Positions 1,513 to 18,127 of a DNA stretch of 64,000 bases are shown piece after piece; the stretch's first letter is position 1, and the number at the start of each line of letters is the position of its first letter. The DNA comes from Micromonospora halotolerans. Its GTDB lineage: Bacteria > Actinomycetota > Actinomycetes > Mycobacteriales > Micromonosporaceae. The stretch spans positions 6,200,001 through 6,264,000 of the forward strand of contig NZ_CP134876.1 of the NCBI RefSeq assembly GCF_032108445.1, in the 5' to 3' direction. A program made the position numbers and the translations under genes. Under the pieces are notes generated by a model. The model did no database searches, had not been told where the DNA came from, and saw nothing but the letters and a program-made list of their open reading frames with translations.

Positions 1513-2799
1513 CTACTGTGGAGCGAGCATCAACACAGCACCTTCTTTAGAAACCGCCGTGACGATCTCATCCGGCTCGCGCCCGGAGGACGTCCGATCG
1601 GGCGTACCCCGCTCGGCGACGCTCTGTTGGGCCTCAATCACCTGGTCCGCGTCGCTCTCACTGAGGGCGTCGTCGACCTCCGCAGCCAGACCAAACACCA
1701 CTTCCAACTCGCCGCCGGGCAAGGTGATCAGATTTCGAACGCCCACGACCTCCAGACCGTCGGGCGTCTGGCGTCGGACCCGCTGTGGCCGTGCATCCGC
1801 GTCCCTGTCTAGCCTCGCGCGGTAAACCGGGGGCGCCCATGTCCGGAAGGCGTAGTCGTTGCCGGCAAAGTCGGCGAGGCTTGCCCAGGATGACTGAACA
1901 CCGGCCCGCACCAGGTTTTCGGCGGATAGCGGCTCGCCCTCGTCGATGTCGACGTGTACGGTCCGCTCGAACGTCTCACGCTCGACGTGCACCTCTGCCG
2001 CGTCCTCGAACAACTCCGACACCTCGACGCGGTGCGTCGGCTCTAGGACGGTCCGACGCCGTCCAGGCGACAGTTCCAGCGCCCTGCAGTAGACCCAGTT
2101 GTCTGCTAGAACCGTGCCGACCGCGAGGCCTGGAGGTTGGCGACCGGCGACGGCCACCCCGCGCAGCTGCACGCACGCCGAGGCCATCTGCTTCAGCCCG
2201 TACCCCCAGTTCTTGGTGCCCTTGCACTCGACCACGGCGTAGCGGTAGCGGTCGTCGCTCCCCGGAATTTCCGCGATCAGCAAGTAGTCGGGGCGCCGGC
2301 TGCGGCGCTGCGTGACCGACGCTTTCACCGCGCCTGCCCTAATGAAGCCGCTGGCGAGGGCGACGTCGATGTCGACGACACGTGCGATCGCGCTGTCGGG
2401 CCATCGGTTCGCCATCCACTCCTCAGCTCGGTGCACCGCGAAACCGACGCCCAGTTCCTCCGAAGTGACCCGGCGCTGGTTTCCGCCGATCCGCTGCCCC
2501 GCAGACGACAAGCAGAGCTGCCCGTCCGGGTCGGCGTCGAACAGTCCCAGATACCGCAGCAGTGACCAGTGTTGGTGCACTTCGTACAGATCGGTCTGGT
2601 ATTCCGGCTTCGTCGCGACAGCGAGCCGGAGTAGGACGTCCACCGGTCGCACCGTCGCCTCACCATGCAGTGCAGGGATGTGCCGCACGCCGAGGTCTTG
2701 GTCGGCGTATGCCTGCACGTCGAGGCAGAGCTGGCTGTCGCTCACACCAGCAAACGTCAAGGGCTGCGCGACGATGTCTAGGGCTTGACGGAGATCCAT
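1513..2799 (-). CDS. PD-(D/E)xK nuclease-like protein
   Basis: Protein of 428 residues from ATG at 2799; the frame opens further upstream with GTG 2817 and TTG 2826, so the start is not certain and there is no strong ribosome site. Around residues 185-215 it shows PDYLLIAE, then a hydrophobic strand with VVECKG, then a helix with a conserved Gln (LKQMASA). This is the order D, then ExK, then helix, of PD-(D/E)xK nucleases such as Mrr-type and type IV restriction enzymes. The N-terminal 150 residues are helical and may sense DNA or a partner; the C-terminal 150 are acidic and unassigned. It lies directly downstream of the HEPN-containing gene, from which the IS5 element now separates it. Exact family not recognised; a defence nuclease is inferred from motif and neighbours. 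Confidence 0.65.
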   Translation of the reverse strand: MDLRQALDIVAQPLTFAGVSDSQLCLDVQAYADQDLGVRHIPALHGEATVRPVDVLLRLAVATKPEYQTDLYEVHQHWSLLRYLGLFDADPDGQLCLSSAGQRIGGNQRRVTSEELGVGFAVHRAEEWMANRWPDSAIARVVDIDVALASGFIRAGAVKASVTQRRSRRPDYLLIAEIPGSDDRYRYAVVECKGTKNWGYGLKQMASACVQLRGVAVAGRQPPGLAVGTVLADNWVYCRALELSPGRRRTVLEPTHRVEVSELFEDAAEVHVERETFERTVHVDIDEGEPLSAENLVRAGVQSSWASLADFAGNDYAFRTWAPPVYRARLDRDADARPQRVRRQTPDGLEVVGVRNLITLPGGELEVVFGLAAEVDDALSESDADQVIEAQQSVAERGTPDRTSSGREPDEIVTAVSKEGAVLMLAPQ

Positions 2800-2902
2800 C
2801 TTCGATATTCTGCCCACCCACAGCAATCGCCGCTGCCCCCGCGCACGTCAGAGCCAGCGCAGCCGCGCCCGTTCAGGATACCGACGGCCGTGTCGTCAGT
2901 TA

Positions 2903-2913
2903 GAACTCCTAAC
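2903..2913. repeat. Left terminal inverted repeat of the IS5 element
   Basis: GAACTCCTAAC; pairs with GTTAGGAGTTT at 3799-3809 with one mismatch. The direct TTA repeat lies just outside both ends. Confidence 0.8.
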
Positions 2914-3736
2914 TCTTTGAGCGTTGGAGTCGCCGCCAGCAGACGATGGAGCAGGCGAGGGTGAGGAAGGCTTGGTGGATGTCGTCGCGGATCTCCCAGC
3001 GGATGCGTAGCCGGCGGAACCAGTGCAGCAGGGCGATGGTCTGCTCGATGACCCAGCGTCGGGTGCCGAGGCCGGAGCCGTGGTCGACGCCGCGTCGGGC
3101 GATGACCGGGGTGATGCCCCCTGCCGCGGAGCTGGCGGCGGTAGATGTCGTAGTCGTAGCCCCGGTCGGCGTAGATCCGCTCGGGCCGCTGCCGGGGTCG
3201 ACCGCGGATGCCCTTGATCCGGGGAACCTTGTCGACCAGGGGCATCAGTTGGATGACGTCGTGGCGGTTGCCGCCGGTCAGGCTGACGGCGAGGGGGATG
3301 CCGCCCGCGTCGGTGATGACGTGGTGTTTCGGGCCTGGCTTGCGGCGGTCGACCGGGCTCGGGCCGGTTTTGGGCCCCCTTTGAGCGCCCGGATGTGGGA
3401 GCCGTCGATCACCGCCCGGGACATGTCCAGTTGACCGGCGGCCCGGAGTTTGCCCAGTAGAAGCTCGTGCAGTCGTTGCCACACGCCGGCATCGTTCCAG
3501 TCTCGTAGCCGCCACCAGCAGGCCATGCCTGACCCAAACCCGAGCTCTTGGGGTAGGTACTCCCACGGGATCCCGGTGTAGAGCACGAACAAGACCCCGC
3601 ACAACACCTTCCGGTCATCAAGCGGCTTGCGACCGGGATAGCGCCGCCGACGAGGCGGGCGAGGCGGCAGCAACGGCTCGACCTCGGCCCACAGGTCGTC
3701 CGAAACGATCCACGGCGGCTGCTCACCTCGCCTCAC
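2909..3736 (-). pseudogene. IS5-family DDE transposase, frameshifted
   Basis: The first frame starts at GTG 3736 and encodes the DUF4096-type N-terminal half (WIVSDDLWAEVEPLLPP, LDDRKVLCGVLFVLYTGIPW, VIDGSHIRALKGGPK). The coding sense then moves to the -1 frame at a C CCA AAA heptamer near 3372-3378, giving TGPSPVDRRKPGPKHHVI and YADRGYDYD. This looks like a programmed -1 slip. Near 3116-3121 a run of five G puts the sequence out of frame again. The expected C-terminal part (ITPVIARRGV, then RWVIEQTIALLHWFRRLR) continues in the original frame to TAG at 2909-2911 inside the terminal repeat. The second shift should inactivate the enzyme unless it is a sequencing error. Confidence 0.8.
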
Positions 3737-3809: not shown

Positions 3810-5342
3810 TTAGCTGACGTCAACCGCTCTGATCATGTTTGCGAACGCCAGAACGACCTCCAGTTGATCCGACGTCACAGGGTCGGGCGAGAAGTGCATG
3901 ACCTCATTGCGAATCTTGGTCACTCGGTCCAACTGCTCTATGAAGATCCCGTAGTCGAGGCGCCATCCCAGAAGCTTGAAGGTGTCTTCGTCCTTGAGAA
4001 TGTGCTTGTAGTTGCCGAGGCTAAGGTCGTCAACGGACTTGACCCGGTTCGGCTGACGCGTAGCGCCTCGGACATCCTCGAAGGGAAGCCGGCTCTGCAC
4101 CCGTCGCCGCAGCCTCAGCTCAATCTCCTCGAGCAGCGCGAAGGGACGGGTCATGTTACCGAACTTCTCGGTCAGGTCGGAGGCGGTGATGATCCCCGAG
4201 ATGCTTCGGCGATCTACGCCGCGCACGAAGACGAACCCGCGCGAGCAGATCTCTTCGATCTGATTCAGGAGGTGCTCATCGTGCTCGACAACCCGAGCGG
4301 ACACTGTCACGTCGGCAAGATCTACTCGGCTCCGCGAGAGTTGGGCCTTGCTGATCGATTCCCAACTGACGGCGCCATACAGGTTCCCGTGGTCGTCGAA
4401 GACTGCCAGTTGTGAGTAGTTGAACTTAAGCATCAGCGTGGTGGCGAGTTGGAGAGAGTCACCGAGGCGGACGCCTACCACCCCCGAGTTGCCTGCTTGA
4501 AGTTGCCCCACTCGTAGCGCGTCAGCCGCCCGGATGACATCGGCTTCGTCCTCGGGTTCATCGGCTCCGACCGCTGCGTCGCTGGTCGGCTCTGTCTTCG
4601 CCGGCACGAGCGCCACTTCGGAGTCGAGTGAGACACTAGTAAAGGAGGGGCGGGTAGTGAGGCCACGATCCGCCAGATCGGCGCTGATCTGCTCAACGGT
4701 CTGGGCTGTTCGCCTCGTGAAATCCCACCGCTCGATTAGCTCGCGCACGGTAAGGCGCACCGAATCGCGTTCGGCAACTTCCACGGCGTGGTCCAGCAGC
4801 GCATCCACGGTGTCGAGGTCGTCCGTTTCCAGACCCGATGGAGGGCGCCCTGGATCGATCTGGCTCTCGGCGAGCTCCCTGATCCGTCGCGGGGCGTCGT
4901 AACGGGTGAGGGCACAGACCGTGAGCAGGGAACCCAGGCTGTGGAGCAGGTCGGACTTGATCAGGCTCTTCGACACACTGGTGTTCAGCCACTTGACCGG
5001 GCGCACATGCCGGAAGCCTTCAGGCGCGGCAGCGCGGTACCGGTAGGGTCCCGCAATCTGACCTATGGCAATCGTGCCGTTCCTGGTTTTGAGGGGCATA
5101 ACGACAAGGTCGCCTTCCTCAGCTTGGCCGATGACCCGCCAAATCTGCCCGGTCCAGTTGGCGATGACCCGCTCGCTCTCGTCGGGATAGGCTTCTCTGA
5201 CGAAGTCGCGGAGCTGCTCGCGAGATTGACATTCGGTGAGGGCACCGAGTTCGGTCCAGCCAAGGATGGCAAGTCCTTCAGCCATTGCTTCCTGCTCGCG
5301 CTCGCCGCTGCTCCCCGCTCGGATCATCCATGCCGCAGTCAA
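3810..5342 (-). CDS. EVE/Mrr-N-like, winged-helix, CBS-pair, HEPN fusion protein
   Basis: Protein of 510 residues from TTG 5342, chosen because GGGAGG lies 10 bases upstream and because the N-terminal domain needs the preceding AWMIRAG. Residues 5-115 (AWMIRAG, AILGWTELG, IANWTGQIWR, DLVVMPL, IGQIAGPYRY) match the small barrel domain found at the N-terminus of some Mrr-like restriction enzymes. Residues about 195-250 look like a winged helix. Residues about 285-410 form two CBS motifs (SQLAVFDDHGNLYGAVSW, VFVRGVDRRSISGIITASD) that may bind a nucleotide. Residues about 415-510 are a Swt1-like helical HEPN domain with RNEVMH at 478-483, the R-x4-H RNase motif. A nucleotide-gated RNase effector is inferred. 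The stop TAA coincides with the IS5 target site. Confidence 0.8.
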   Translation of the reverse strand: MTAAWMIRAGSSGEREQEAMAEGLAILGWTELGALTECQSREQLRDFVREAYPDESERVIANWTGQIWRVIGQAEEGDLVVMPLKTRNGTIAIGQIAGPYRYRAAAPEGFRHVRPVKWLNTSVSKSLIKSDLLHSLGSLLTVCALTRYDAPRRIRELAESQIDPGRPPSGLETDDLDTVDALLDHAVEVAERDSVRLTVRELIERWDFTRRTAQTVEQISADLADRGLTTRPSFTSVSLDSEVALVPAKTEPTSDAAVGADEPEDEADVIRAADALRVGQLQAGNSGVVGVRLGDSLQLATTLMLKFNYSQLAVFDDHGNLYGAVSWESISKAQLSRSRVDLADVTVSARVVEHDEHLLNQIEEICSRGFVFVRGVDRRSISGIITASDLTEKFGNMTRPFALLEEIELRLRRRVQSRLPFEDVRGATRQPNRVKSVDDLSLGNYKHILKDEDTFKLLGWRLDYGIFIEQLDRVTKIRNEVMHFSPDPVTSDQLEVVLAFANMIRAVDVS

Positions 5343-5464: not shown

Positions 5465-5638
5465 TCACCACGTCGAGCACTCGGAGAGACTTCCGGTCTC
5501 GGCCAGACCGGCGACGGTAGGAAGTTGGCGTAGCCGACCCAAGAGGATGGTGTTCTCTCGATGCGGCCTCTCGTGCATCCACCGCTCCACTCGCTCGACG
5601 CAGTGCTTGACCGTAGCTTCGAGTTCGAACACGCTCAT
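5465..5638 (-). CDS. 57-residue protein coupled to the Ser/Thr kinase gene
   Basis: ATG 5638 overlaps the kinase stop as ATGA (5635-5638), a typical translational coupling signal. The 57-residue product, ending with TGA at 5465-5467, is helical and charged (VKHCVERVERWMHERPHREN, then ILLGRLRQLPTV) with no signal peptide or membrane segment. No family recognised. The exact overlap and the in-frame stop shortly before the next gene's ribosome site support a real gene. It could be a kinase substrate, regulator or antitoxin-like partner; this is inference. Confidence 0.6.
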   Translation of the reverse strand: MSVFELEATVKHCVERVERWMHERPHRENTILLGRLRQLPTVAGLAETGSLSECSTW

Positions 5639-7245
5639 CGCTCCTCTCGCCCTCCGCCTGTCTCGCCTGGGACGCTTTCGTCCAAACGATCGAGATGAAC
5701 CAGCAAGGCTTGGATTTCCACCGCCGCCGGTGACTGTGGCCCCTGCCTGGCGCCGATGTCCCCGAGCAGCTCCATCAGTTTGTTCCGAGCAGCGGTCACG
5801 TCACCGACGCCAGCAGCGAGCATGGCAATCTGCTGACGCAACGCGAAGAGCCCGGGCGAGCCCGAAGGCATTGTCTGCTGTTCCTCGGCCAGCAGCGCTT
5901 CCAACTCACGGAGCGCCTCAGCCGCCTCTCCCAGCTCCGCCTGGCACATCGCCGCCTGCTGCCGGCACTGCCAGATCAGCTCCTGGTCGGGGACGGGACG
6001 TTGAGCCAGATCGGGTATGAGCCGCTGGAACTCAGCCAGCGCCTGCCGGAACGCGCCCGCGAGGACGTGGAGGTTGGCCAGGTAAAGCCGTAGTTCCAGG
6101 ACCCTCGGCTGCTTGGCGCCGCGCCCCCTCCTGATCGGACGCAGCGCCGTTTCGAGCAGCTCGGCGGCCTGGGTGAACCGCTCCTCCTCAGCAAGTTCCC
6201 AGGCACGCTCCTCCACCTCCGCCAAGTGATCTAGCGACGGCGGCTCGACGAGCTCAGGGGCAACGCGAGGCCGAACGATGTCGACCCGCGACGGCGACAG
6301 CGGCGGCGTACGCGGGGGCAGCGGGCCGAAGGGGTACCGGTGCGGCATGGTGGGGTCGATCGACTGACCATCACCAATCTGCAGCGCCAGATCCTCGGCC
6401 ACCCCGGGCTCGACCGTGCCGAACGGCGCCAGGATTCCGTACACCTCGGCGGCAGAGCCGGGACGGTCCTGCGGGTCCTTCGCGAGCATCCGCCCGACGA
6501 TCGACACGAGGCCATCGGGCACACCGGCCCGATGCTCGGCCACCGAGGGGATCGGATCGTTCATGTGCCGGTGCAGCAAGCCGAGCGCGGTGTCCGCTCG
6601 GTACGGCGGGTTTCCCGTCAGCAGCTCGAACAGAACACAACCCAGCGCATAGAGGTCGGCCCTCGGCCCGACCGTGCTGTTAAGCGCCTGCTCTGGAGCC
6701 ATGTACGTGGGCGTACCGAGGGTGTGGCTGGTGGCGGTCAGCCGGGGCACGTCAGGCCCGAGCAGTGCTGCCACGCCGAAGTCGAGGACCTTGACCGCAC
6801 CGGTCGGGGTGACCATGAGGTTCTGCGGCTTCAGGTCCCGGTGTACCAGGGACGCGGCGTGGGCGGCCGCGAGCACGGAGCAGATCTGTGCGCCGATCGC
6901 GGCGGCCCACGGCATTGCGAGCCAGCCCCGTTCGGCGATCAGATCCGCCAGGACCACGCCCGGCACGAGCTGCATGACGATGTAGATGTCGTCACCGTGG
7001 TAACCCACGTCGTGGACGCTCGGCACACCGGGGTGGTCCAACCTGGCCGTAACCCTGGCTTCCCGCATGAAGCGTTCGACTGTGCTGTCCCGTTCGTGCT
7101 CGGGAATGGTGAGCTTGCGGAGGAACTTGATGGCGACCGGTCGGTCCAGCTTCTCGTCGAAGCCGGCCCACACCTCCCCCATGCCGCCATGACCGAGCGG
7201 GTACGTCAACTCGTACCGCTCGGCCACCCGCTCCTGCGCCTGCAT
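5635..7245 (-). CDS. Ser/Thr protein kinase with TPR-like C-terminal region
   Basis: Protein of 536 residues with a purine-rich ribosome site before ATG 7245. Residues about 10-275 are a Hanks-type kinase: glycine loop LGHGGMGEVW, VAIKFL lysine, HRDLKPQN catalytic loop near residue 137, DFGVA metal site and GTPTYMAPEQ activation loop. Residues about 350-510 consist of helix pairs with TPR spacing (EERFTQAAELLETALRP, AGAFRQALAEFQRL, LGEAAEALRELEALL). Unlike most actinobacterial kinases of this class there is no transmembrane segment or extracellular sensor, so it should be cytoplasmic with a protein-binding tail. It lies downstream of hsdR and a membrane protein gene and is coupled by ATGA to a 57-residue protein. 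Defence kinases are known in other island types; a defence role here is inference. Confidence 0.88.
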   Translation of the reverse strand: MQAQERVAERYELTYPLGHGGMGEVWAGFDEKLDRPVAIKFLRKLTIPEHERDSTVERFMREARVTARLDHPGVPSVHDVGYHGDDIYIVMQLVPGVVLADLIAERGWLAMPWAAAIGAQICSVLAAAHAASLVHRDLKPQNLMVTPTGAVKVLDFGVAALLGPDVPRLTATSHTLGTPTYMAPEQALNSTVGPRADLYALGCVLFELLTGNPPYRADTALGLLHRHMNDPIPSVAEHRAGVPDGLVSIVGRMLAKDPQDRPGSAAEVYGILAPFGTVEPGVAEDLALQIGDGQSIDPTMPHRYPFGPLPPRTPPLSPSRVDIVRPRVAPELVEPPSLDHLAEVEERAWELAEEERFTQAAELLETALRPIRRGRGAKQPRVLELRLYLANLHVLAGAFRQALAEFQRLIPDLAQRPVPDQELIWQCRQQAAMCQAELGEAAEALRELEALLAEEQQTMPSGSPGLFALRQQIAMLAAGVGDVTAARNKLMELLGDIGARQGPQSPAAVEIQALLVHLDRLDESVPGETGGGREER

Positions 7246-7290
7246 CCGACTCCCCCTGCATCCGGCCGCAGATTCCGCTGGTTCGCTCAG

Positions 7291-8079
7291 CTAGAACCGC
7301 TCACCGTATAGATCCGCCAACTCCCGGTACGCCTCGCGAACCGCCTCAAGGGCATCGGGGTCGTGGGCGGCGTTCTCCCCAGCCAAGGCTGCGAGTTCGA
7401 GGGCGGTCTGAATCCGGGCCAGTTCCGCCTCGGTCTGCTCCCAGAGCGTTGTTGCCTTCTCCCGCTGCTTAACAAGAGCCTGAAAAGCATGATTGTTCGG
7501 CGTCCGAATCGGCAGCGGCTGGTGGTGACGGCGGACGACCCGCGGGCGAAGCTGCTGCCGACGGCTGAGAATCTCCGCGGCCTCCCACAACATCTGCGCG
7601 AGCAGCCGCCCTCCCTGGGCCGGTTCAATTGCTTCTTCCACGTCAGGGAGGGCGCGGCCAGCTCGCTCGGCCAACGCGACCAGCTGAGAGAATTCCTCTC
7701 GCTCCTCGTTCTCGTGTAACTCGCGGTGTAGTTCCGGGAACGCCGCCTGGTCTGGCGCCACCACCCGAGGAGGCGGTGCTTGCGATAACACCCCCGCCAA
7801 GGAGAGCCCAAGTACCAATACCGCCAGGACAAACACGGCCAGTGCAGGCACACCGCTGAAGAACAGCCCCAGAGCGCCGATCAACACCAGCGTGGCTAGG
7901 ACGATGATGGCGGCGACATTGGGAGGTTTCTGAGGCGCCGGCGCGCCTCGCAGGTCCGTCATGCTGCCCCACTCGTGCTTGAGTGGTGCCTTGGACACCC
8001 TGAGCGGAGCCAGAGCAGCCACGGTCCGCGTGTCGTCCACGGCGATCCAGAGGTGGAAGGGTGGGTCGGACGGGGACAC
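7291..8079 (-). CDS. Two-helix membrane protein with long cytoplasmic helical tail
   Basis: The GTG start at 8079 is preceded by a strong GAGAGGAGG; an internal ATG at 7962 is an alternative. The 262-residue product has about 50 polar residues, two hydrophobic helices at about 54-76 and 79-97, then about 160 charged residues that should form helices or a coiled coil (ELHRELHENEEREEFSQLV and a Glu/Gln-rich stretch near the end). No family recognised. It lies 30 bases after the hsdR stop and about 45 bases before the kinase start, so it is probably co-transcribed with both. A membrane anchor or effector partner of the kinase is one possibility. Confidence 0.7.
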   Translation of the reverse strand: MSPSDPPFHLWIAVDDTRTVAALAPLRVSKAPLKHEWGSMTDLRGAPAPQKPPNVAAIIVLATLVLIGALGLFFSGVPALAVFVLAVLVLGLSLAGVLSQAPPPRVVAPDQAAFPELHRELHENEEREEFSQLVALAERAGRALPDVEEAIEPAQGGRLLAQMLWEAAEILSRRQQLRPRVVRRHHQPLPIRTPNNHAFQALVKQREKATTLWEQTEAELARIQTALELAALAGENAAHDPDALEAVREAYRELADLYGERF

Positions 8080-8108: not shown

Positions 8109-11100
8109 TCAGGCGATGCCCTTGCGGCGCCGGATCATCTGGTACGCCTGTCGGCGCGCGAACTGGTTGAGCTGCGACCGCAGGTTCTCGTCGTCCAGGT
8201 AACGCTGCATCAGCTTGCCGTTGTCGTCGTGCCGGGACAGGATCACGTCCTCGATCCGCTTGTCGCAGACGACGCCGAAGTTGCTTTCGTCGTTGACCAT
8301 TGCGGCGGCTTCGAGGGTGCCGTCCTCGGCCAGGGCGACGATCTGCTGTTCGACCCAGACCTTGTCGGCCTCGCCCAGCCCGATGCCGAACTTGTCGTTG
8401 AACACGTCGATCAACTCGGACAACGCCACCTTCTCCAGATCGTGCTGACGCCCCGCTCCCTCGCCGACGAAGCCGGGCAGCATCTGCTCCCCTTCCGGCG
8501 ACAGCGACGCGTCGTGCTCACCGGTCTTGGCAACGCGCAGGTGGGTCAGCTGCACCTCGCCGATGTCCACCGACGGGTCCTGCCGGCGCGGCAGCCGGTT
8601 CAGCAGAGCCCGCCCGTACAGGTAGAGCCGTTCCAGGTCCGCGTCCTGGTAGGGGACGATCTGGCTGAGGAACGCGTACATCCGGGTGTAGTCGCGCAGC
8701 GCGGACCGAAAGCCGTCCGCGGCCTCATGGTCGTCGTCGGCCAGGGCCTTGAAGCGTTGCACCGCCGGCTCCGTGAAGCGGTAGAGGGAGGCGTGGGCCC
8801 GCTGGAGGGCGGTGTCGCTGGTCGCCTTCTGCTCCGCGGCGAGCAGCGCCTCGGCGTACGCCTGCATCTCCGAGTCGACCAGGACCGGGTAGCCGGTCAC
8901 CGCGTTCTGCGCAGTGTAGAGCAGGTTGGGGTCGGTGGGGGTGGTGGCGGCGGTTTCGAAGTACGGCTTGAACTGCTCGGCGACGTCTCCGGCCTCGTTG
9001 ACGAAGTCGAGGACGAAGACGTCTCCCTGTGCCTTGAGCGGGTGGGTGCGGTTGAGCCGGGACAGGGTCTGGACCGCGGCGACGCTCTTGAGCAGCTTGT
9101 CCACGTACATCGTGGTGAGCAGCGGCTGATCGAAGCCGGTCTGGTACTTCTCGGCGACGACCAGGATCTTGTACTCGACGTCCTGCTTGGCCTTCGGCGT
9201 GCCGGCGTACTTGTCGTCGGCGGCCGTGTAGGCGAACCGCTCGGGCAGCTCACCCTCGCTGAACCCGTTGCTCCGCGCCTCGGTGTGCTCGACCCCGTCG
9301 ATCTCCAGGTCGCCGGAGAAGGCGACCAGGGAGTCGCAGCCCACGTACTGCTGCATCTCGACGTACTTCTTGATGGCGGTCTGCAGGCGGACGGCGGCCT
9401 CGCGGGAGCCGGTGGCCACCATCGCCTTGGCGCGCCCGCCGAGACGCAACGCGGTGTGCTTGCGGAAGTGCTCGATGATGATCTCAGCCTTCTGGGCCTG
9501 CATGGTGGGGTGCAGGCTGGCGAAGCGGGCGAGCTGGGCGCCGGCCTTCTTCGGGTCGACCTCCGGGTCGTCGGGGTTGGCGTTGGCCAGCTTCCAGTAC
9601 GCCTTGTAGGTCAGGTAGTTGCGTAGCACGTCGAGGATGAAGCCCTCGTCGATGGCCTGGCGCATCGAGTACGTGTGGAACGGCTGCGGGTTGCCGGTGA
9701 CCGGGTGCGGCGTGCCGAAGAGTTCGAGGGTCTTCGGCTTCGGTGTGGCGGTGAACGCGAAGTACGACAGCGTCTCGTGCCGGCCGCGGGCCAACGCCGA
9801 GGCGGTGAGCAGGTCGCCCGACTCGTCCACGTCGTCGCTGCCGAGCTTGAGCAGCACCTTCTTCAGCCCGGCAGCCGAGTCGCCGGACTGCGACGAGTGC
9901 GCCTCGTCGACGATGACCGCGAACCGCTTGCCCTTGAGCCCCTGCACCTTGTCGAGGATGAAGGGGAACTTCTGCATCGTGGTGATGATGATCTTCGCCG
10001 TCTCGCCCTGGAGGGCGGCAGCGAGCTGGGCGGAGTCCTTGTCGATCCGCTGCACCACGCCCGGCACGTGCTCGAACTGGAACACCGTGTCCTGCAACTG
10101 CCGGTCCAGCACCACCCGATCGGTGATGATGACGACCTTGTCGAAAACCGGCTCGTTGGGGCGCAGTCCCTTGGCCCGGGCGTCCTCGTCAAGTGTGGGC
10201 GCGGTATGCAGGCTGGAGAGCCGGTGCGCCAGCCAGGCGATGGTGTTCGACTTGCCAGACCCGGCCGAGTGCATGACCAGGTAGTTGCGGCCGGAGCCGT
10301 TGCGGGCGGCATGGTCGGTGAGCTGGGTGACCGCGTGCCACTGGTGGTAGCGTGGGAAGATCAGGGCCCGCGATTCCTTGTCGGTGTGCAGGAACCGCCG
10401 GACCAGGTCCATCCAGGTGTCCGGGTGCCAGATCTGCTCCCAGAGGTAGGAGCTGCGGTAGCCCGATGCGCCCGCAGGCGGGTTGCCGGCGCCGCCGGAG
10501 ACGCCCGGCCCGTCGGAGCCGATGTTGAAGGGCAGGAACCGGGTCTTGTCGCCAGCAAGCTTCGTCGTGATGAAGACCAGGTCGGGATCCACGGCGAAGT
10601 GCACGAGGGTACGCCGCGAGAAGAGCAGTTCCTTCGGGTCGCGGGTCTCGCGGTACTGCTTCTTGGCGTCCTCGACGGTTTGGCCGGTCAGCGGGTTCTT
10701 CAGCTCAGCCGTGGCGAGCGGGATGCCGTTGACGAAGAGCACCAAATCGAGGGTGTTGTGGTTCTGGGTCGAGTAGGCGAGCTGGCGGGTGACGGTGAGG
10801 CGGTTGGCGCGGTAGAGCTTGAGCGCGTCGTCGGTGATGGCGTGGGCAGGCTTGAAGTAGGCGAGGCGGATCAGGACGCCCTTGTCCTTGACGCCACGAC
10901 GGAGGACGTCGAGGGGACCGCGCTCGTCGATCTGCTTGGCGAGGTACCGCGCGAATTGCCGCTGTGCCTCGTCCGGGTTCTTGCCGTGGTACGCCAGCAG
11001 CTTCGTGCACTCGTCCGGCTGCGTCGCGCCGATGAACGCGAACAGCTCGGCGCTGTCCAGCCCGAACTGTCGGACATAGTTGCTGGTGGCCCCTTGCAGC

Positions 11101-11165
11101 CACCCAGAGCCGAGTAGGGCACCCTCGATCGCCGCCTCGAACGACTGCTCCTGATGGCAACTCAT
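8109..11165 (-). CDS. hsdR: Type I restriction endonuclease subunit R
   Basis: Protein of 1018 residues, normal length for HsdR. The N-terminal nuclease domain has LDLVLFVNG followed by AELKN (about residues 138-155), the D and ExK residues of the PD-(D/E)xK site. Two RecA-like motor domains follow: Walker A HSAGSGKSNT near 298, DEAH box VDEAHSS near 419, AFTATP motif III, and TGFDQPLLTTMYVDK plus QTLSRLNRTHP in the second lobe. The C-terminal helical part should contact the methylase. It starts inside the hsdS stop with a 4-bp ATGA overlap (11162-11165). It cleaves DNA at a distance from unmodified sites after ATP-driven translocation, in complex with HsdM and HsdS. Confidence 0.96.
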   Translation of the reverse strand: MSCHQEQSFEAAIEGALLGSGWLQGATSNYVRQFGLDSAELFAFIGATQPDECTKLLAYHGKNPDEAQRQFARYLAKQIDERGPLDVLRRGVKDKGVLIRLAYFKPAHAITDDALKLYRANRLTVTRQLAYSTQNHNTLDLVLFVNGIPLATAELKNPLTGQTVEDAKKQYRETRDPKELLFSRRTLVHFAVDPDLVFITTKLAGDKTRFLPFNIGSDGPGVSGGAGNPPAGASGYRSSYLWEQIWHPDTWMDLVRRFLHTDKESRALIFPRYHQWHAVTQLTDHAARNGSGRNYLVMHSAGSGKSNTIAWLAHRLSSLHTAPTLDEDARAKGLRPNEPVFDKVVIITDRVVLDRQLQDTVFQFEHVPGVVQRIDKDSAQLAAALQGETAKIIITTMQKFPFILDKVQGLKGKRFAVIVDEAHSSQSGDSAAGLKKVLLKLGSDDVDESGDLLTASALARGRHETLSYFAFTATPKPKTLELFGTPHPVTGNPQPFHTYSMRQAIDEGFILDVLRNYLTYKAYWKLANANPDDPEVDPKKAGAQLARFASLHPTMQAQKAEIIIEHFRKHTALRLGGRAKAMVATGSREAAVRLQTAIKKYVEMQQYVGCDSLVAFSGDLEIDGVEHTEARSNGFSEGELPERFAYTAADDKYAGTPKAKQDVEYKILVVAEKYQTGFDQPLLTTMYVDKLLKSVAAVQTLSRLNRTHPLKAQGDVFVLDFVNEAGDVAEQFKPYFETAATTPTDPNLLYTAQNAVTGYPVLVDSEMQAYAEALLAAEQKATSDTALQRAHASLYRFTEPAVQRFKALADDDHEAADGFRSALRDYTRMYAFLSQIVPYQDADLERLYLYGRALLNRLPRRQDPSVDIGEVQLTHLRVAKTGEHDASLSPEGEQMLPGFVGEGAGRQHDLEKVALSELIDVFNDKFGIGLGEADKVWVEQQIVALAEDGTLEAAAMVNDESNFGVVCDKRIEDVILSRHDDNGKLMQRYLDDENLRSQLNQFARRQAYQMIRRRKGIA

Positions 11166-12394
11166 ACGTCCGCTCCCTCAGCCGTCGAGGCATCCAGCTG
11201 GCCGCAAACAGCCGCCGTAACGACCGCGTGATACCGCTCTGTCAGAAGCGCGAGGCTCTGCCGCACCAATTCCTCCGAGCGCTCAAGTTGACCAAACGCG
11301 TCGTCAAGCTCGTGGGCGACCTGTCGCTGCAACTCCAATGGCAGCAGAGGCACCTCGCGCTTATGCAGATCATTCCGATTGAGACCAGGTATAGCGGATC
11401 TTGCTTGCTCCATCTCGAAGGGAAGAGATTTTAGTAGGTAGTAACAGAATCTAGGGTCGTTTCCTTTGAAGTCTCGAACATAGAGAGTTGTATTGTGCGG
11501 CCAGAAGTCTCGGCCAACCCAGTGGACAGCGCCAGCGGACCCATATCTTCCGACGACAACGCCAGGGCCTTTTACTATTGCCACATCATGTTCGCCGACT
11601 ACACCTGCGGTTGTTACGACGACAACATTCCCGGGCCGGCGTTGCTCGGCAGTCAGATCGATGCCACGCTGCAGTTGGACCGCGCGCAATAACGGAACGA
11701 TCTGGCCCTCGGAATGCAGGGCAGGATACCACGGCACGTTCGTCTCAACCGGTGTTGCAGAAAGGTGAGCTCCGGAGACCATCAAAGGCAGCATAGAGCG
11801 CCTGCGTTCGCTTAGTAGGATCAGTTGGCGCTGCCGCCGCTCGACTACACGCCGGAAGCGGATAGTCTGCCGGTCGAGGAAGTCGACGATCCGCCGCTGC
11901 TCAATCAACGGCGGCAGGGGGGTACGCAACTGCTCAATGTCCGGCATATAGATCGTTTTATGTGTTGATCCCGCAGCGACCCGCCGCAGGTCCGGTGCCA
12001 TTGCCTTCAGAACATAAAGCAGGAACTTCGGATGCAGTCCGTGGCCGCATGTCCAGGTGGCAAAGTCCTGGCTAGTCGCCATATCCTTGCCCATGATTGC
12101 AGAAAATCCAACCGAGGCCGTCCTGGAAAGAATTACCGTACCTGCGGGGTGCTTTACGGCAGCAGAGTGAGCAAGGCCAAGAGCGCTGACTTTCTCCTTT
12201 GTATCTTGGATTAGGTCAGCGCTTTGGTCCCGCAGTTGCCACACATCAGCGAGCGTGATCCATGGAATGTCGCAGTTTTGCCAGTACTCCGGCTTTTGAC
12301 GGCTCGGGGTGTGCCCTGTCCCCAGCTTCGCCACGTACCGAATAGGAACGGTTTCGTATCGCGAGTTGACGAGCCAGGGTGCTATCTCGCTCAC
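11162..12394 (-). CDS. hsdS: Type I restriction-modification specificity subunit S
   Basis: Protein of 410 residues with the two-repeat architecture of HsdS. A first target-recognition domain (KLGTGHTPSRQKPEYW, IPWITLADV) is followed by a conserved helix (PPLIEQRRIVDFLDRQTIRF). A second, diverged recognition domain (about 205-350) ends in a second conserved helix (LELQRQVAHELDDAF). It sets the bipartite DNA sequence recognised by the complex. Part of the gene (11400-12200) is visibly richer in A and T than its neighbours, the usual sign of recognition-domain exchange. It overlaps hsdM and hsdR by 4 bp at either end. Confidence 0.95.
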   Translation of the reverse strand: MSEIAPWLVNSRYETVPIRYVAKLGTGHTPSRQKPEYWQNCDIPWITLADVWQLRDQSADLIQDTKEKVSALGLAHSAAVKHPAGTVILSRTASVGFSAIMGKDMATSQDFATWTCGHGLHPKFLLYVLKAMAPDLRRVAAGSTHKTIYMPDIEQLRTPLPPLIEQRRIVDFLDRQTIRFRRVVERRQRQLILLSERRRSMLPLMVSGAHLSATPVETNVPWYPALHSEGQIVPLLRAVQLQRGIDLTAEQRRPGNVVVVTTAGVVGEHDVAIVKGPGVVVGRYGSAGAVHWVGRDFWPHNTTLYVRDFKGNDPRFCYYLLKSLPFEMEQARSAIPGLNRNDLHKREVPLLPLELQRQVAHELDDAFGQLERSEELVRQSLALLTERYHAVVTAAVCGQLDASTAEGADV

Positions 12395-14352
12395 CGCGTC
12401 ACCTTGCCGAGCAGGGTCTGAATTTCGTTCTCCACGGCCTTGATTTCTGCATCGATATCCGCGAGCGACCGCGGGGGATGATAGACGTAGAAATGGCGGG
12501 TGAAGGGGACCTCGTACCCGATCTTGGTCTTGGCCTCGTCGATCCAGGCGTCGGGGACGTGTGGCAGCACCTCGCGCTTGAGGTAGTCGTGGATGTCCTC
12601 GTCGAGCGACACGTTCTCGTTGTCGCGCAGGTCAGCGTCCGGCAGCGGGTTGCCCTTGCGGTCGGTCTGCACCTCCCCCTCCGGGTCGCTGGCCGAGAAC
12701 GCCACCCACACCGCCTTCTCCACGGCCGCCGGCAGCTTTCCCAACGCGTTCACCTCGATCGCGAACTCAGCCCGAGCCACAGACCGCAGACCGACCAATG
12801 ACTTCGCCGCCGCCAGCAGCGACTCCCGCTCCGCGTACTTGAGGACCGCCTTCGCTTCCGCCAGCAGCGCGACGGTCTCCTCGGTGACCTCGAAGCGCAG
12901 CCGCAGCGGACGCTCGACGGTGATGCGCTGGTAGCCGAAGTCGGTGGTGTTGAAGACCTTCACCTTAGCGTGCTGCGCGTGCTCCGGGTCGTCCGCGATG
13001 GACAGGGCCTCCACATAGGCGCGAGTCAGCTCGGCGATGTGTTCGTCGGTGAGCATCTTGCGCTTGTCGCCGAGGCTCTTGCGCATCCTGGTCCAGTAGT
13101 CGCGGCCGTCGAGCAGCACGACCTTCCGCCGGCGCGCTGGCTCCTTCCGATTGGTGAGGATCCAGAAGTAGGTGGAGATGCCGGTGTTGTAGAACAACTG
13201 GTCGGGCAGCGCGACGACGCCCTCCAGCAAGTCGTTCTCCAGGATCCAGCGGCGGATCTCCGACTCCCCCGACCCGGCGGCGCCGGTGAAGAGCGGCGAG
13301 CCGTTGAAGACGATCGCCAGCCGGCTGCCGCCGTCCTCGGGGCGCTTCATCTTCGAGATCATGTGCTGGAGGAAGAGCAGCGAACCGTCGTTGATCCGGG
13401 GCAGTCCGGCGCCGAACCGGCCGGCGTGGCCCCGGGCCGCCTCGTCCTTGATGGACTTCTCGACCTTCTTCCACTCCACGCCGAAAGGCGGGTTGGCGAG
13501 CATGTAGTCGAACCGCTCGTCCTCGTGGCCGTCCTGGCTGAACGAGTTGCCGAAGGCAATCTTTGTCGGGTCGCCGCCCTTGAGCATCATGTCGGAGCGG
13601 CAGATGGCGTACGTCTCGCCGTTGAGTTCCTGCCCGTACACCTCGACGGTGGCGTGCGGGTTGTGCTCCTGGATGTGGTCCTGAGCCTCGCTGAGCATGC
13701 CGCCGGTGCCGCAGGCCGGGTCGTAGACCTTGCGCACGATGCCCGGGGTGATCAGGTCGTCCTCGTCGGGGGCGAGGAGCAGGTTGACCATCAGCTTGAT
13801 GACCTCGCGCGGGGTGAAGTGCTCACCGGCGGTCTCGTTGCTGATTTCGGAGAAGCGGCGGATCAGTTCCTCGAAGACGTACCCCATCTGGTGGTTGGAG
13901 ACCACGTCCGGGTGCAGGTCGATATCAGCGAACTTGGCGACCACCTGGTAGAGCAGCCCGGCTTCGGCGAGCCGGCTGATCTGCGTGTCGAAGCCGTACT
14001 TGTCAAGCACGTCGACGGCGCCGGGCGAGAAGCCACCGATGTAGGCGCGCAGGTTGAGCGCGACGTGGTCCTGGTCGCCGAGGAGCTTGCGGATGGACAT
14101 CTCGCTGGTGTTGTAGAACGACAGCCCGGCGGTCTTGCGTAGCACCGGGTCCATGTTCTGCACGCCCATGTCCTTGAGCTGCTTGTGCCGGGCGAGCACC
14201 GCGTCCTTCGTCGGCTCGAGCACGCAGTCGAGACGCCGGAGCACGGTCAGCGGGAGGATCACCCGGCCGTACTCGGACTGCTTGTAGTCGCCGCGGAGCA
14301 GGTCGGCCACCGACCAGATGAAGTTCGCCAGCTCTTGGTGCTTAGTGCTCAC
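12391..14352 (-). CDS. hsdM: Type I restriction-modification methyltransferase subunit M
   Basis: Protein of 653 residues, GTG start at 14352 with AAGGAACC upstream. The N-terminal HsdM helical domain (FIWSVADLLRGDYKQSEYG, VILPLTVLRRLD) is followed by the methylase core: S-adenosylmethionine motif YDPACGTGGM near residue 213 and catalytic LANPPFG near 287. The C-terminal 150 residues include YQRITVERPLRLRFEV and a conserved VPFTRHFYVY near the end. It methylates adenine within the site chosen by HsdS. It is the first gene of the hsdM-hsdS-hsdR run and lies 93 bp downstream of the HTH-methylase gene on the same strand. Confidence 0.95.
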   Translation of the reverse strand: MSTKHQELANFIWSVADLLRGDYKQSEYGRVILPLTVLRRLDCVLEPTKDAVLARHKQLKDMGVQNMDPVLRKTAGLSFYNTSEMSIRKLLGDQDHVALNLRAYIGGFSPGAVDVLDKYGFDTQISRLAEAGLLYQVVAKFADIDLHPDVVSNHQMGYVFEELIRRFSEISNETAGEHFTPREVIKLMVNLLLAPDEDDLITPGIVRKVYDPACGTGGMLSEAQDHIQEHNPHATVEVYGQELNGETYAICRSDMMLKGGDPTKIAFGNSFSQDGHEDERFDYMLANPPFGVEWKKVEKSIKDEAARGHAGRFGAGLPRINDGSLLFLQHMISKMKRPEDGGSRLAIVFNGSPLFTGAAGSGESEIRRWILENDLLEGVVALPDQLFYNTGISTYFWILTNRKEPARRRKVVLLDGRDYWTRMRKSLGDKRKMLTDEHIAELTRAYVEALSIADDPEHAQHAKVKVFNTTDFGYQRITVERPLRLRFEVTEETVALLAEAKAVLKYAERESLLAAAKSLVGLRSVARAEFAIEVNALGKLPAAVEKAVWVAFSASDPEGEVQTDRKGNPLPDADLRDNENVSLDEDIHDYLKREVLPHVPDAWIDEAKTKIGYEVPFTRHFYVYHPPRSLADIDAEIKAVENEIQTLLGKVTR

Positions 14353-14445
14353 CAGGTTCCTTTCGATTGCCTTAAGTCAGGCAGTATGCCCGTTGTCCTG
14401 CATCGTTGTAGTCCCCCGCCCGGGGGCGGATCGTCGTCCAATCCG

Positions 14446-16407
14446 TCAGCTCGGCGGCCTCCTGGGGTCCTTACCTCGCCGAGGGCCGCCGGGATGACGC
14501 TGATCAGGTCGGAGCGCCCCGCGCGCGAGGCCGTCGGCGGTGAGCTGGACCATTTCCGCGCCAAGGGTCGCCGCCTGTCGGATTGCCGACTCGAACGCAT
14601 CGAGTCGCCGGAACGCCTCCCCGTGCGCGCGCTGCTCGTCCAGCGGCAGCCGCCGCACCTGGGCCCGCCGGATGTCGAACCGCAGCGTCCCGGACAGGCT
14701 CGACGCCTGCTTCTCGTTTGCCGACGTCCGCAGCTGACCGGCGAGAAACCACGAGTCCAGCGCCGCCGGATTGGGCCGCAGCAGGTAGAGGTTCCGCCCC
14801 AGCAGCGCCCCCTCGGTCGTCACCACGCGGGCGGTGAGCTGGCGCGCGATCATCGGCACCACCACGTCCCCGGCCGCGAGCCGGACCTCCTGGCCGAGCC
14901 GCCCGTCGTCCCGGCCGGAGGGACCTTCGCCGCCCAGAACGTCCTGGACGGTCAGCACCGACGGCCCGCCGGCTGAGGGCTCACCGCCCTCGGATGACGC
15001 GGCGCGGATCGGGCCGATCAGCTGCAGTGCACCGGCGCGGGCCAGCTCGCCCACCGACAGGAACTCCCCGTCCGTTCCCTCGGGCGACGGAGTCACCTGC
15101 GGCATCAGCCCCGGCAGGTCGCCGACGATGGCAGCGAGGCGCTCTCTGGTGCGTACCAGATGCTCCCCCGTCACCTCGCCCGCGACGGTGGGTTGGCGGC
15201 GCGCGGGGGTGAGGTCGACCTCCTCGTCGAGCAGCTCGATGACCGGGACCGCCCGGGCGAAGCCGGCCTCCTCGACGTCGGCGTCCGGCGCGGCGGTGAA
15301 GGCGCGCCAGACGGCGAGGATCCGCGCGTAGGTCTCGGCAGCGTCGCCGGCAGCGGCGTCCACCAGCAGCGTCCGCGCCGGAGGCGGCGCGTCGGGTGCC
15401 GGCCGCCGCAGCACCCACAGGTGCAGGGGTACGCCGTGCGGCGCGGCCACGCCGGGCGGAAGCGCGATGACGGCCCGCAAAGCGCCGCGGCGCAGCAGCT
15501 CGGCGCGGATGCGGCGGCCGGGGCGTCGGCTGGCGACGGTGGGTGGCATCAGCAGGACGGCATGGCCACCGGCGCGTAGGTGGGCCAGGGCGTGCTGCGC
15601 CCAGGCCAGCTCCGGCTCGGTACGTGGGGTGGTGCCGACGATCCAGCGGGGGTCGTGGCCGAGCTCCTCGTCGCCCCAGTTGGCGGCACCGAACGGCGGG
15701 TGGCAGACGACGGCGTCGAAGGTGCGGCCGGCGAAGGCATCGGCGCGCAGCGAGTCACCGGTGCAGACCTCCCCCGCCACGTCGCGCAGGGCCAGCCACA
15801 ATCCGGCGAGCCGGGCGAGGTCCTCGTCGATTTCCTGCCCGTAGGCCGAGGTGCAGCCGGCGCGGACGGCGGCGCGCAACGTGGCGCCAGAGCCGGCGGC
15901 CGGGTCGAGGACAGAGCCGCCACCGACGCCGACGAGCCCGACCATCAGATCCGCCAGGTCGTCCGGGGTGGCGAACGGGCGGCCCGGTCCGGGAGCGGAG
16001 AACCGTTGCCACAGCGCGTCGAAGGCGCCCTGCGATCCGAGTTCGTCGGCGAGCGCCTCGACGTCGGGCAGTAGCGGCTTGAACTGCGGATCAGCTGAAC
16101 GGCCGGGGCCTTGACCGCGTTGCCGGGCCAGGAGCAGGGCGCCGACGGCGGCCAGGCCGGCGGCGGGTGACTGGCTCGCGGCGGCGAGATGCCGCCACAG
16201 CCGGTCGGCGCTGGCCAGCTCGGGAAGTTTCCCCTGGGCGTGGAGCCACTGCTCGACCTGCCCCAGGTCGAACTCGGGACTGGCCGCGGTGCCGCCAACC
16301 GGGGCGGGGAAGTCGGCGTGTCGTTTGCGCCAGTTGCTGACTGCGGCCCGACCGACACCGGCGAGCCGGGCGATCTCCGCTGCGGTGATGGTCGGTGTCT
16401 CCTGCAC
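14446..16407 (-). CDS. HTH-containing N6-adenine methyltransferase-like protein with HPPF motif
   Basis: Protein of 653 residues, probable GTG start at 16407. Residues about 7-60 are a helix-turn-helix (TAAEIARLAGVGRAAVSNWR). The HsdM-like core has DPAAGSGATLR near 167 for cofactor binding. Motif IV reads VVCHPPFG (near 235), so the usual Asn of NPPF is His; the codon is CAC. Asn at this position contacts the target amine, so activity may be altered or lost. Residues about 430-620 resemble an HsdS-like recognition region (GDVVVPMIARQLTARVV, SGTLRFDIRRAQVRRLPLDE). It may be an extra modification enzyme or a DNA-binding regulator of the adjacent hsd genes. Confidence 0.8.
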   Translation of the reverse strand: MQETPTITAAEIARLAGVGRAAVSNWRKRHADFPAPVGGTAASPEFDLGQVEQWLHAQGKLPELASADRLWRHLAAASQSPAAGLAAVGALLLARQRGQGPGRSADPQFKPLLPDVEALADELGSQGAFDALWQRFSAPGPGRPFATPDDLADLMVGLVGVGGGSVLDPAAGSGATLRAAVRAGCTSAYGQEIDEDLARLAGLWLALRDVAGEVCTGDSLRADAFAGRTFDAVVCHPPFGAANWGDEELGHDPRWIVGTTPRTEPELAWAQHALAHLRAGGHAVLLMPPTVASRRPGRRIRAELLRRGALRAVIALPPGVAAPHGVPLHLWVLRRPAPDAPPPARTLLVDAAAGDAAETYARILAVWRAFTAAPDADVEEAGFARAVPVIELLDEEVDLTPARRQPTVAGEVTGEHLVRTRERLAAIVGDLPGLMPQVTPSPEGTDGEFLSVGELARAGALQLIGPIRAASSEGGEPSAGGPSVLTVQDVLGGEGPSGRDDGRLGQEVRLAAGDVVVPMIARQLTARVVTTEGALLGRNLYLLRPNPAALDSWFLAGQLRTSANEKQASSLSGTLRFDIRRAQVRRLPLDEQRAHGEAFRRLDAFESAIRQAATLGAEMVQLTADGLARGALRPDQRHPGGPRRGKDPRRPPS

Positions 16408-16506
16408 GTTCGGAGTGTGTCACACCTGTCAAGCATCATGTGTGTTGACAGCGTTCACAGATGATGCTCTCATTGACGCCGCCACGTTCACAGCAGGAGG
16501 AAAACG
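16408..16506. promoter_or_regulatory. Divergent promoter region between HTH-methylase and lipoprotein genes
   Basis: This 99-bp gap holds TTGACA on the plus strand (16445-16450) and TTGACA on the minus strand (complement of 16427-16432). The minus one is about 20 bases before the GTG start, so that message may be leaderless or nearly so. A perfect palindrome GTGTG-T-CACAC lies at 16415-16425 and could be an operator, for example for the adjacent HTH protein. The -10 boxes are not clear. Confidence 0.4.
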
Positions 16507-17040
16507 ATGCGCAAGGCCACCACTCTCGCTCTGCTCGCCACCGGTCTCGTCGCGCTGGGCTGCGGCGCCGGCTCCACGGACGACGCCACCAGCAGCAAGG
16601 CCGACGCCGGCGGCGCCAAGGGCGAGGACAAGCCCGCCAAGGTCGCGAAGATCGGTCAGCCGGCCAGGGACGGCAAGTTCGAGTTCACGGTCAAGTCGTC
16701 CAAGTGCGGCGTCACCAAGATCGGCACCGACCTGATCGGCGCCAAGGCCCAGGGCCAGTTCTGCCTGGTCACGCTCAACGTCAAGAACATCGGCAAGGAG
16801 GCGCAGATGTTCGATGGCAGCAGCCAGAAGGCGTACGCCGCCAACGGCACCGAGTACTCCGCCGACGGCGGGGCCGCCATCTACGCCAACAAGAACGCCG
16901 AGACGTTCCTCAACGACATCAACCCCGGCAACCAGGTCACCGGCGTGGTCGTCTTCGACATCCCGAAGAACGTGAAGATCGCCAAGCTCGAGCTGCACGA
17001 CTCGCCGTTCTCCGGCGGCGTGACCGTCTCCCTCGCCTGA
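16507..17040 (+). CDS. DUF4352-type secreted lipoprotein
   Basis: Protein of 177 residues; CAGGAGG lies 8 bases before ATG 16507. The signal peptide ends in a lipobox (LVALGC, Cys about residue 19), followed by a low-complexity linker and a beta-sandwich domain (GKFEFTVKSSKCGV, FCLVTLNVKNIG, NGTEYSADGGAAIY, VVVFDIP) of the DUF4352/telomeric-repeat-like type. The product should be tethered outside the membrane. Its role is unknown. It is paralogous to the products at 31724 and, more distantly, 24669. Confidence 0.85.
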   Translation: MRKATTLALLATGLVALGCGAGSTDDATSSKADAGGAKGEDKPAKVAKIGQPARDGKFEFTVKSSKCGVTKIGTDLIGAKAQGQFCLVTLNVKNIGKEAQMFDGSSQKAYAANGTEYSADGGAAIYANKNAETFLNDINPGNQVTGVVVFDIPKNVKIAKLELHDSPFSGGVTVSLA

Positions 17041-17054
17041 TCCACCGCTGGCTT

Positions 17055-17080
17055 TGGGGCGGGCGCCACCGCCCGCCCCA
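17055..17080 (+). terminator. GC-rich hairpin after the lipoprotein gene
   Basis: Perfect 11-bp arms TGGGGCGGGCG and CGCCCGCCCCA with a 4-base loop, 14 bases after the stop. There is no clear T run, so it may be a weak terminator or an attenuator before the next gene. Confidence 0.55.
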
Positions 17081-17122
17081 GCCATGCCCCGTTCCTTGCC
17101 GCTGTTCACAGAGGAGACCGCC

Positions 17123-18019
17123 ATGACGGATCCGACCCAGCCCATTCCGCACGATGAGCCGGCCAACCGGGATGCGGCACTGCCGCAGTCCGCGCCCACG
17201 CCGACGGGTGCCGCCGCTCCCCCGCTCGCCAGCCCGGCCACTCCCGCCAGGCCCTCCACCGCCCGCGCCCTGGTGATCGGTGGCGCCGCGCTCGCCATCG
17301 CCCTGTGCTGCGGCGGCACCGTGATCAACGCGCTCGGCAGCGACGACGATGCCAAGCCGACGTCCATCGCCGCCACCTCGGCCAGCCCGAGCAGCGCGGC
17401 ACCGACCACCGCGGCGCCGACGACCGCGACACCGACGACTGCCGCCCCCACGTCAGCCGCCCCGGCCACGACGGAGCCGGCGCCCACCACCGCGCCGCCC
17501 ACTCCGAAGCCGAAGGTAATCAAGGGACGCGGCGACGACGTGGTGAAGATCCGCGAACTGACGGAGCTGTCCGTCGTGAAGTTCACCTGCAAGTGCACCA
17601 GCAACACCGTCCTGAAGAGCGACGGCGACGGCCTGCTCGTCAACGAGATCGGTTCGTACAGCGGCAAGCGGTGGATCAACCTGGAGGACGGTTCGCTGAC
17701 CACGCAGTTAGAGATCGAGGCGACGGGGTCGTGGACGCTGACGATCGGGACCGTCGACCAACTGGCCACCGCCTTCCCAAGCGGGAAGGCGTCCGGCAAG
17801 GGTGACGACGTGCTGGTGCTGGGGGGCACCGCCAGCGCCGTCAAGATCACCCATCGAAAGGGCAGCTCCAACTTCGCCGTCCACGCCTACTCGCTCGATA
17901 CCGGCGAGGGTGGCCTGCTGGTCAACGAGATCGGTGCGTACTCCGGCACCCGCCCGCTGTCCGCGCCGGCCCTCGTCCAGATCACCGCCGACGGCTACTG
18001 GACGATCACGCCCGCCTGA
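17123..18019 (+). CDS. Single-pass membrane protein with duplicated extracellular motif
   Basis: ATG 17123 follows AGAGGAGACC. The 298-residue product has a Pro/Ala-rich cytoplasmic N-terminus, one membrane helix at about 48-72 (ALVIGGAALAIALCCGG), a Thr/Ala/Pro linker, and an extracellular part in which GLLVNEIGSYSG and GLLVNEIGAYSG occur twice about 95 residues apart. Each copy is followed by a tryptophan-containing strand (WTLTI, WTITPA). It is therefore an internal duplication of a small beta domain. Function unknown. It follows the DUF4352 lipoprotein by about 80 bp. Confidence 0.8.
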   Translation: MTDPTQPIPHDEPANRDAALPQSAPTPTGAAAPPLASPATPARPSTARALVIGGAALAIALCCGGTVINALGSDDDAKPTSIAATSASPSSAAPTTAAPTTATPTTAAPTSAAPATTEPAPTTAPPTPKPKVIKGRGDDVVKIRELTELSVVKFTCKCTSNTVLKSDGDGLLVNEIGSYSGKRWINLEDGSLTTQLEIEATGSWTLTIGTVDQLATAFPSGKASGKGDDVLVLGGTASAVKITHRKGSSNFAVHAYSLDTGEGGLLVNEIGAYSGTRPLSAPALVQITADGYWTITPA

Positions 18020-18127
18020 CCCGTCCACGACATCCGCTTCACCGAGGACCGCCGCGGCGACGTCTTGACAGCCGTCGCGGCCGGTACCGCCCACCCCTTC
18101 GCTGGCTACGAGACGTCAGGAGGCGTC

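Follow-up and report, generated by a model that had tools for sequence, protein, structure and literature searches.

DS-11 is a one-protein anti-phage system with CBS and HEPN domains, among 42 systems validated in Escherichia coli in the DefensePredictor study (DeWeirdt, Mahoney and Laub, Science 2026; PMC13092281). In the part of that paper available to us, DS-11 was modelled as a dimer with ATP, with Y157 modelled against the adenine, and defence was lost in the CBS mutant Y157A and in HEPN catalytic mutants; the same text describes the system without an EVE domain, does not state abortive infection and calls the trigger ligand still to be discovered. Other systems combine related pieces, as far as the accessible texts go: VcaM4I is an EVE-HNH modification-dependent endonuclease (PMC7897488), HHPV4I has a PUA domain, a winged helix and a nuclease in that order, the winged helix reading N6-methyladenine (PMC11037411), and the CoCoNuTs combine YTH-like and HEPN domains with predicted RNA targeting (PMC11090510). 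Here we describe a gene in a 64,000-nucleotide stretch of the Micromonospora halotolerans genome (NZ_CP134876.1, positions 6,200,001 to 6,264,000; hereafter the window) whose product carries a DS-11 core behind an N-terminal EVE domain, a putative reader of modified bases.

All parts of this EVE-DS-11 protein lie in a single frame running from 5342 down to 3810 on the minus strand (510 codons, TTG start):

3810..5342, minus strand: whole gene, 510 residues (alignment of relatives A1, 120 rows; predicted model)
4839..5342, minus strand: EVE/YTH-like (PUA superfamily) N-terminal domain, residues 1-168 (region of the N-terminal half of PADLOC PDC-S02)
4602..4811, minus strand: winged-helix-like segment, residues 178-247 (secondary structure, alignment with the E. 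coli protein, alignment A4)
4524..4592, minus strand: low-confidence linker, residues 251-273 (predicted local distance difference test score <50)
4146..4523, minus strand: CBS pair, residues 274-399
4416..4418, minus strand: Tyr309, aligned with Tyr157 of the E. coli protein
4176..4196, minus strand: G383-I-I-T386-A-S-D389 of CBS repeat 2 (G383, T386 and D389 in 93/93 rows)
3813..4145, minus strand: HEPN-like segment, residues 400-510 (alignment A5; HEPN_Swt1 match in the relative L117, E 2.7e-4)
3894..3911, minus strand: RNEVMH, residues 478-483, the HEPN R-x4-H motif (R478, N479 and H483 in 93/93 rows)

The frame and the domains named in a preliminary description of this DNA (putative sensor, winged helix, CBS pair and HEPN) were borne out by fold or profile, the HEPN call weakly. 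Since W5, R8 and G10 are kept among relatives, the long TTG start is likelier than that of the 491-residue database version (P0001). Stops interrupt the plus strand across the same stretch. The gene has a G+C content of 61.6% (vs. 69.4% in the window); a promoter and terminator scan around it gave nothing above shuffled sequence, and a PHROGs search returned one non-significant match (0.077).

Residues 200-504 score 274.8 bits against the NCBIfam model NF053863 (DS11_antiphage), above its curated cut-off of 260, and the core is therefore the published system rather than a new one. The cut-off was passed narrowly, and only 4 of the 22 matching genomes in our class sample pass it; the model also picks up ordinary CBS proteins weakly (13 of the 14 control genomes have hits with E≤1e-3), though always below the cut-off. 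A 365-residue E. coli protein (L007) reaches 404.9 bits, and its gene is present in 127 of 5426 E. coli genomes, every copy at ≥99% identity. From the residue number 157 and the family score, we infer that this protein is DS-11 itself. It aligns with the window protein from residue 197 of the latter at 30% identity over 345 columns, with Y309 opposite Y157 and R478/H483 opposite R330/H335. The two proteins thus have in common a winged-helix-like segment, a CBS pair and a HEPN-like segment in the same order, and both retain the HEPN R-x4-H and the CBS tyrosine essential in DS-11. They differ in that the E. coli protein lacks an EVE domain, and the window protein is 26-31% identical to the proteobacterial rows of alignment A3. 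The preliminary description had proposed a CBS-gated HEPN defence protein, an idea supported by the score above the cut-off and by the defence that DS-11 confers on E. coli (PMC13092281, in the part available); its further suggestion, abortive infection, may apply to the window protein. Its statement that no described system had this domain order has to be narrowed, as the CBS-HEPN core is published and the N-terminal reader on that core is what stands.

Conservation was followed in two alignments: A1, with the window protein and 119 of the best 120 of 193 relatives (P0001, the window's own protein, being left out), and A3, with the window protein and 92 hand-picked EVE-bearing, proteobacterial, acidobacterial and other DS-11 relatives, the DS-11 relatives being drawn from the best 120 of 3641. 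At position 309, A1 has 77 rows with Tyr and 43 with Phe; one or other of these residues occurs there in 90 of the 93 rows of A3. A1 retains R478, N479 and H483 in 119 rows, the remaining row being gapped, and in A3 they are invariant together with Q311, G383, T386 and D389 (93/93); the R-x4-H motif expected of homologues was thus found throughout A3. T386 and D389 fit what we take to be the ribose-contacting motif of CBS repeats. Because repeat 1 has SWES at that position, the simplest reading of the sequence is one canonical ligand site per chain. Residues 400-510 are helical in the predicted model, and Pfam-level support for the HEPN-like segment is weak (HEPN_Swt1 in 3/93 and HEPN_RiboL-PSP in 1/93 rows of A3). 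Profiles built for the EVE (A2), winged-helix (A4) and HEPN (A5) segments had no significant match among PDB sequences. At E≤1 in Pfam, the window protein has neither a DNA nuclease domain (PD-(D/E)XK, HNH, GIY-YIG or PLD) nor an ATPase match, the latter setting it apart from the anticodon nucleases PrrC and RloC, which we take to join an ABC-type ATPase domain to HEPN.

The top matches in a fold search with the whole model were CBS pairs with AMP, ATP or S-adenosylmethionine from other kinds of protein; CBS structures fill the list, and such searches in effect probe the CBS part only. These matches would suit a stress regulator or toxin in which the CBS pair reads the adenylate energy charge and the HEPN segment trims RNA in starvation, phage defence being secondary. 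Fusions of HEPN with CBS were indeed earlier suggested to regulate RNA stability (Anantharaman 2013; PMC3710099, accessible text). They resemble the window protein in having CBS and HEPN in one chain, but some carry HD domains, and 'EVE' as a whole word is absent from that text. The sporadic spread of DS-11 matches (3 of 396 genomes of the phylum and 22 of 394 of the class, the window's own genome counted in both, and 7 of 247 of another phylum), the demonstrated defence by DS-11 (PMC13092281, same part) and the restriction-type N-terminal modules all argue against a stress role, which we regard as very improbable.

The N-terminal domain gave 50 listed matches in a fold search: 44 named YTH, two PH1033, one MJECL36, one VcaM4I and two with titles naming no domain. 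PH1033 and MJECL36 are, we presume, EVE proteins. The predicted fold of this domain is thus of the EVE/YTH type (PUA superfamily), and listed relatives carry the label PF28530 over the same region. PADLOC PDC-S02 matches at 4e-56 over profile positions 1-203 of 346, its C-terminal half being unmatched in the window protein. W5, W29, W63, Y100 and W118, kept in 40-42 of 42 rows, are candidate aromatic cage residues, judged by sequence only. VcaM4I and HHPV4I have a PUA-superfamily domain first, a winged helix second (in HHPV4I) and a nuclease last; the window protein has a similar layout, with a winged-helix-like segment in second place and a CBS pair and HEPN-like segment where they have a DNA nuclease. 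By analogy, the PUA, winged-helix, HNH order (PMC11037411, accessible text) is repeated here with the DNase replaced. An N-terminal EVE-like domain is likewise shared with PDC-S02 or Mrr-type proteins (L073, L080 and L083), which end instead in the DNA nuclease Mrr_cat. Type IV restriction enzymes have a DNA nuclease domain too, unlike the window protein in Pfam.

EVE might instead read RNA, placing HEPN on modified tRNA, rRNA or mRNA, as suggested for the YTH-like domains of CoCoNuTs, and leaving the CBS pair as the sole infection sensor. YTH structures, many of them solved with N6-methyladenosine RNA, head the fold list of the N-terminal domain, and CoCoNuTs pair YTH-like with HEPN domains for predicted RNA targeting (PMC11090510, accessible text), while DS-11, as described in the part of PMC13092281 available, defends without an EVE domain. 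The likeness to CoCoNuTs, a YTH/EVE-superfamily domain and a HEPN RNase in restriction systems, goes only so far: they are multi-gene systems with an McrB GTPase and coiled coils, their accessible text does not mention 'CBS domain' (PMC11090510), and no McrB-like match was found in the window protein or in the seven neighbours scanned. We hold RNA reading to be rather unlikely, since three proteins join EVE to Mrr_cat, a DNA nuclease domain, and the alternative modules on the DS-11 core, RAMA and Mrr_N, are by name restriction-enzyme domains.

These alternative modules were found in six proteins: RAMA in four (L006, L098, L103 and L116, the last broken) and Mrr_N in two (L069 and L074). EVE was seen on Mrr_cat, as above, and on AAA_5 in L077. 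In a stop-to-stop census of the fetched loci, EVE was present in 64 of 110 core-bearing frames (duplicates and fragments counted), a share biased by the EVE-bearing query with which most loci were drawn. The less biased class sample (394 genomes, E≤1e-25, own genome counted) held 24 places in 22 genomes: six with EVE, four with RAMA and 14 with neither seen, nine of these 14 having been scanned with Pfam. One genome (G987) has both a RAMA-DS-11 and an EVE-DS-11 (L103 and L118). In L006/L119, a 760-residue RAMA protein (14141-16423, minus strand; P0241) has a zinc-ribbon- and RNase H-like stretch before RAMA, by eye; the window separately has an RNase_H protein at 18065-18946. Four actinobacterial DS-11 relatives (L104, L108, L109 and L112) have long open N-terminal regions of 314-511 residues, acidic-rich and of low complexity in L104; the two scanned, L109 and L112, gave no Pfam match except CBS.

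Mapped on a core tree with 79 rows, the four N-terminal labels require four changes (minimum three, shuffled mean 29.8). A branch with a support of 82 (SH-aLRT, unstarred) has the EVE rows to one side of it, the three RAMA rows form one clade (support 99, starred), and the two Mrr_N rows do not group (two changes). The tree left out about half of the EVE rows by thinning, 11 loci (duplicates, fragments and split genes), and cores below 100 bits or 180 profile positions, including the broken L116; it used eight of the best 120 E. coli-type proteins. Since the changes are so few, with EVE on one side and RAMA in a clade, the N-terminal reader appears, on these sequences, to have been gained, lost or exchanged a few times and not at random; the direction cannot be read from the tree. 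Some features speak against the EVE fusion having arisen cleanly and only once: the long branches of L010 with L064 and of L056, the placing of L054 and L058 between the remaining EVE rows and all others, and the unstarred support of the dividing branch. We found no description of an EVE reader on the DS-11 core, or of RAMA or Mrr_N there, in the open-access literature, supplements excepted. The accessible main text of the Bell 2020 EVE survey has no whole-word HEPN, Mrr, CBS or RAMA, and the DefensePredictor paper was the only open-access one found to hold 'CBS domain', HEPN and antiphage together; PDC-S02 is named in four open-access papers.

We propose that the window protein is a DS-11-type anti-phage RNase, gated by nucleotide, that senses modification through an additional reader of modified bases, and put the probability of this at roughly 60%. 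EVE, possibly with the winged helix, would recognise a modified base in phage DNA or wrongly methylated nucleic acid; the CBS pair would bind an adenine nucleotide and set the dimer state; and on the right input a dimeric HEPN (R478, N479, H483) would cut cellular or phage RNA, halting phage growth. The evidence consists of the domain identities (weakly for HEPN), the invariant catalytic and CBS ligand residues and the homology to a proven defender; to it we add by inference the ligands of EVE and of the CBS pair, an RNA target and the joint action of two inputs. The nature of the EVE ligand and the need for both inputs are the least secure points. Given a reader on the DS-11 core, the RAMA and Mrr_N alternatives and EVE on Mrr nucleases, sensors may have been swapped between kinds of nuclease.

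The following features surround the gene:

8109..14352, minus strand: type I restriction-modification (RM) genes HsdR, HsdS and HsdM, ends overlapping
5635..7245, minus strand: Ser/Thr protein kinase with a tetratricopeptide repeat-like tail (Pkinase 1.2e-47)
1513..2826, minus strand: putative PD-(D/E)XK protein, 437 residues (no Pfam match; nuclease motif by eye)

Ahead of the EVE-DS-11 gene, the order on the same strand is HsdM, HsdS, HsdR, a 262-residue protein and the Ser/Thr kinase, the latter separated from it by 292 bases. The type I RM island of the preliminary description is thus present in the window, but proved optional in relatives. We counted every gene in the flanks of 56 EVE-DS-11 loci (up to 10 kb per side, contig ends permitting) against 11 query proteins from the window, L012, L032 and L041 (phmmer, E≤1e-6), queries that miss other kinds of RM. 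A searched RM or methyltransferase gene was found in 24/56 loci and none in 32/56, a descriptive count rather than an enrichment, with near-copy loci included (e.g. L026/L027 and the Streptomyces set). HsdM/R-like genes occurred in 6/56, and a IIG/DrmMI-like methyltransferase and/or DrmD-like helicase in 16/56, 15 of them in Streptomyces and 11 with a kinase as well. A pure type I RM component was therefore rejected as a general rule, HsdM/R-like genes being present at only six loci, and the gene seems able to stand alone, yet is often placed by restriction loci.

PrrC sits beside a type I RM system. On this model, the window protein could guard the adjoining operon, inactive while RM is intact and firing when a phage inhibits it. 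Two loci would suit such a guard: L064, where HsdR stands on one side of the gene and a methyltransferase-kinase pair on the other, all closely spaced on the same strand, and the Micromonospora locus L012, which has the same RM operon (HsdR 90.5% and kinase 79% identical), then an Mrr gene and then an EVE-DS-11 on the opposite strand. The L012 EVE-DS-11 is only 48% identical to that of the window beside so similar an operon, and the pairing looks to have been recruited more than once. The scarcity of HsdM/R-like genes, the 292-base gap to the kinase and the congener RAMA-DS-11, within whose surrounding 33 kb the window's HsdM, HsdS and HsdR have no match, speak against a guard, which we consider quite improbable.

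The kinase and the 262-residue protein (no significant Pfam match; together 5635-8079, minus strand) accompany HsdR in L012 also (79% and 61% identical, respectively), and since they go with HsdR in both places, with kinases at 11 of the 16 methyltransferase-helicase loci, they may belong to RM systems. The restriction island is extended by a second N6-methyltransferase with a helix-turn-helix-like start (14446-16407, minus strand; PADLOC mad1, 3.9e-6) and a 480-residue protein without a Pfam match (16429-17871, minus strand). Between the EVE-DS-11 and PD-(D/E)XK genes lies a transposase of the IS4/5 type, encoded in two frames that overlap (DUF4096 and DDE_Tnp_1; 2778-3736, minus strand). The PD-(D/E)XK gene was rejected as a fixed partner: 15 of 394 genomes match it, only G000 and G204 beside a DS-11 place, and no relative was found beside the DS-11 gene in the other loci compared; in G878 the relative and a DS-11 core are on separate contigs. 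In the congener locus L119, a relative (12236-14008, minus strand; 30% over 235 residues) directly follows the RAMA-DS-11 gene.

What is new here is thus the EVE reader on the DS-11 core, with a possible general exchange of sensors between DNA-cutting and RNA-cutting defence. It is plausible, though at somewhat short of even odds, that there is a restriction-like class in which a CBS-gated HEPN RNase, in place of a DNase, is controlled by swappable readers of modified DNA (EVE, RAMA, Mrr_N) that form an AND gate with an adenine-nucleotide signal. The natural EVE, RAMA and Mrr_N fusions on the CBS-HEPN core make the input of DS-11 directly testable. If the proposal is true, type IV restriction, with modified DNA as input, would be joined to RNase immunity, with RNA as output, in one chain; this would account for defence against phages protected from ordinary restriction by their modified DNA, and the sensors of type IV restriction would be common to DNA-cutting and RNA-cutting immunity.
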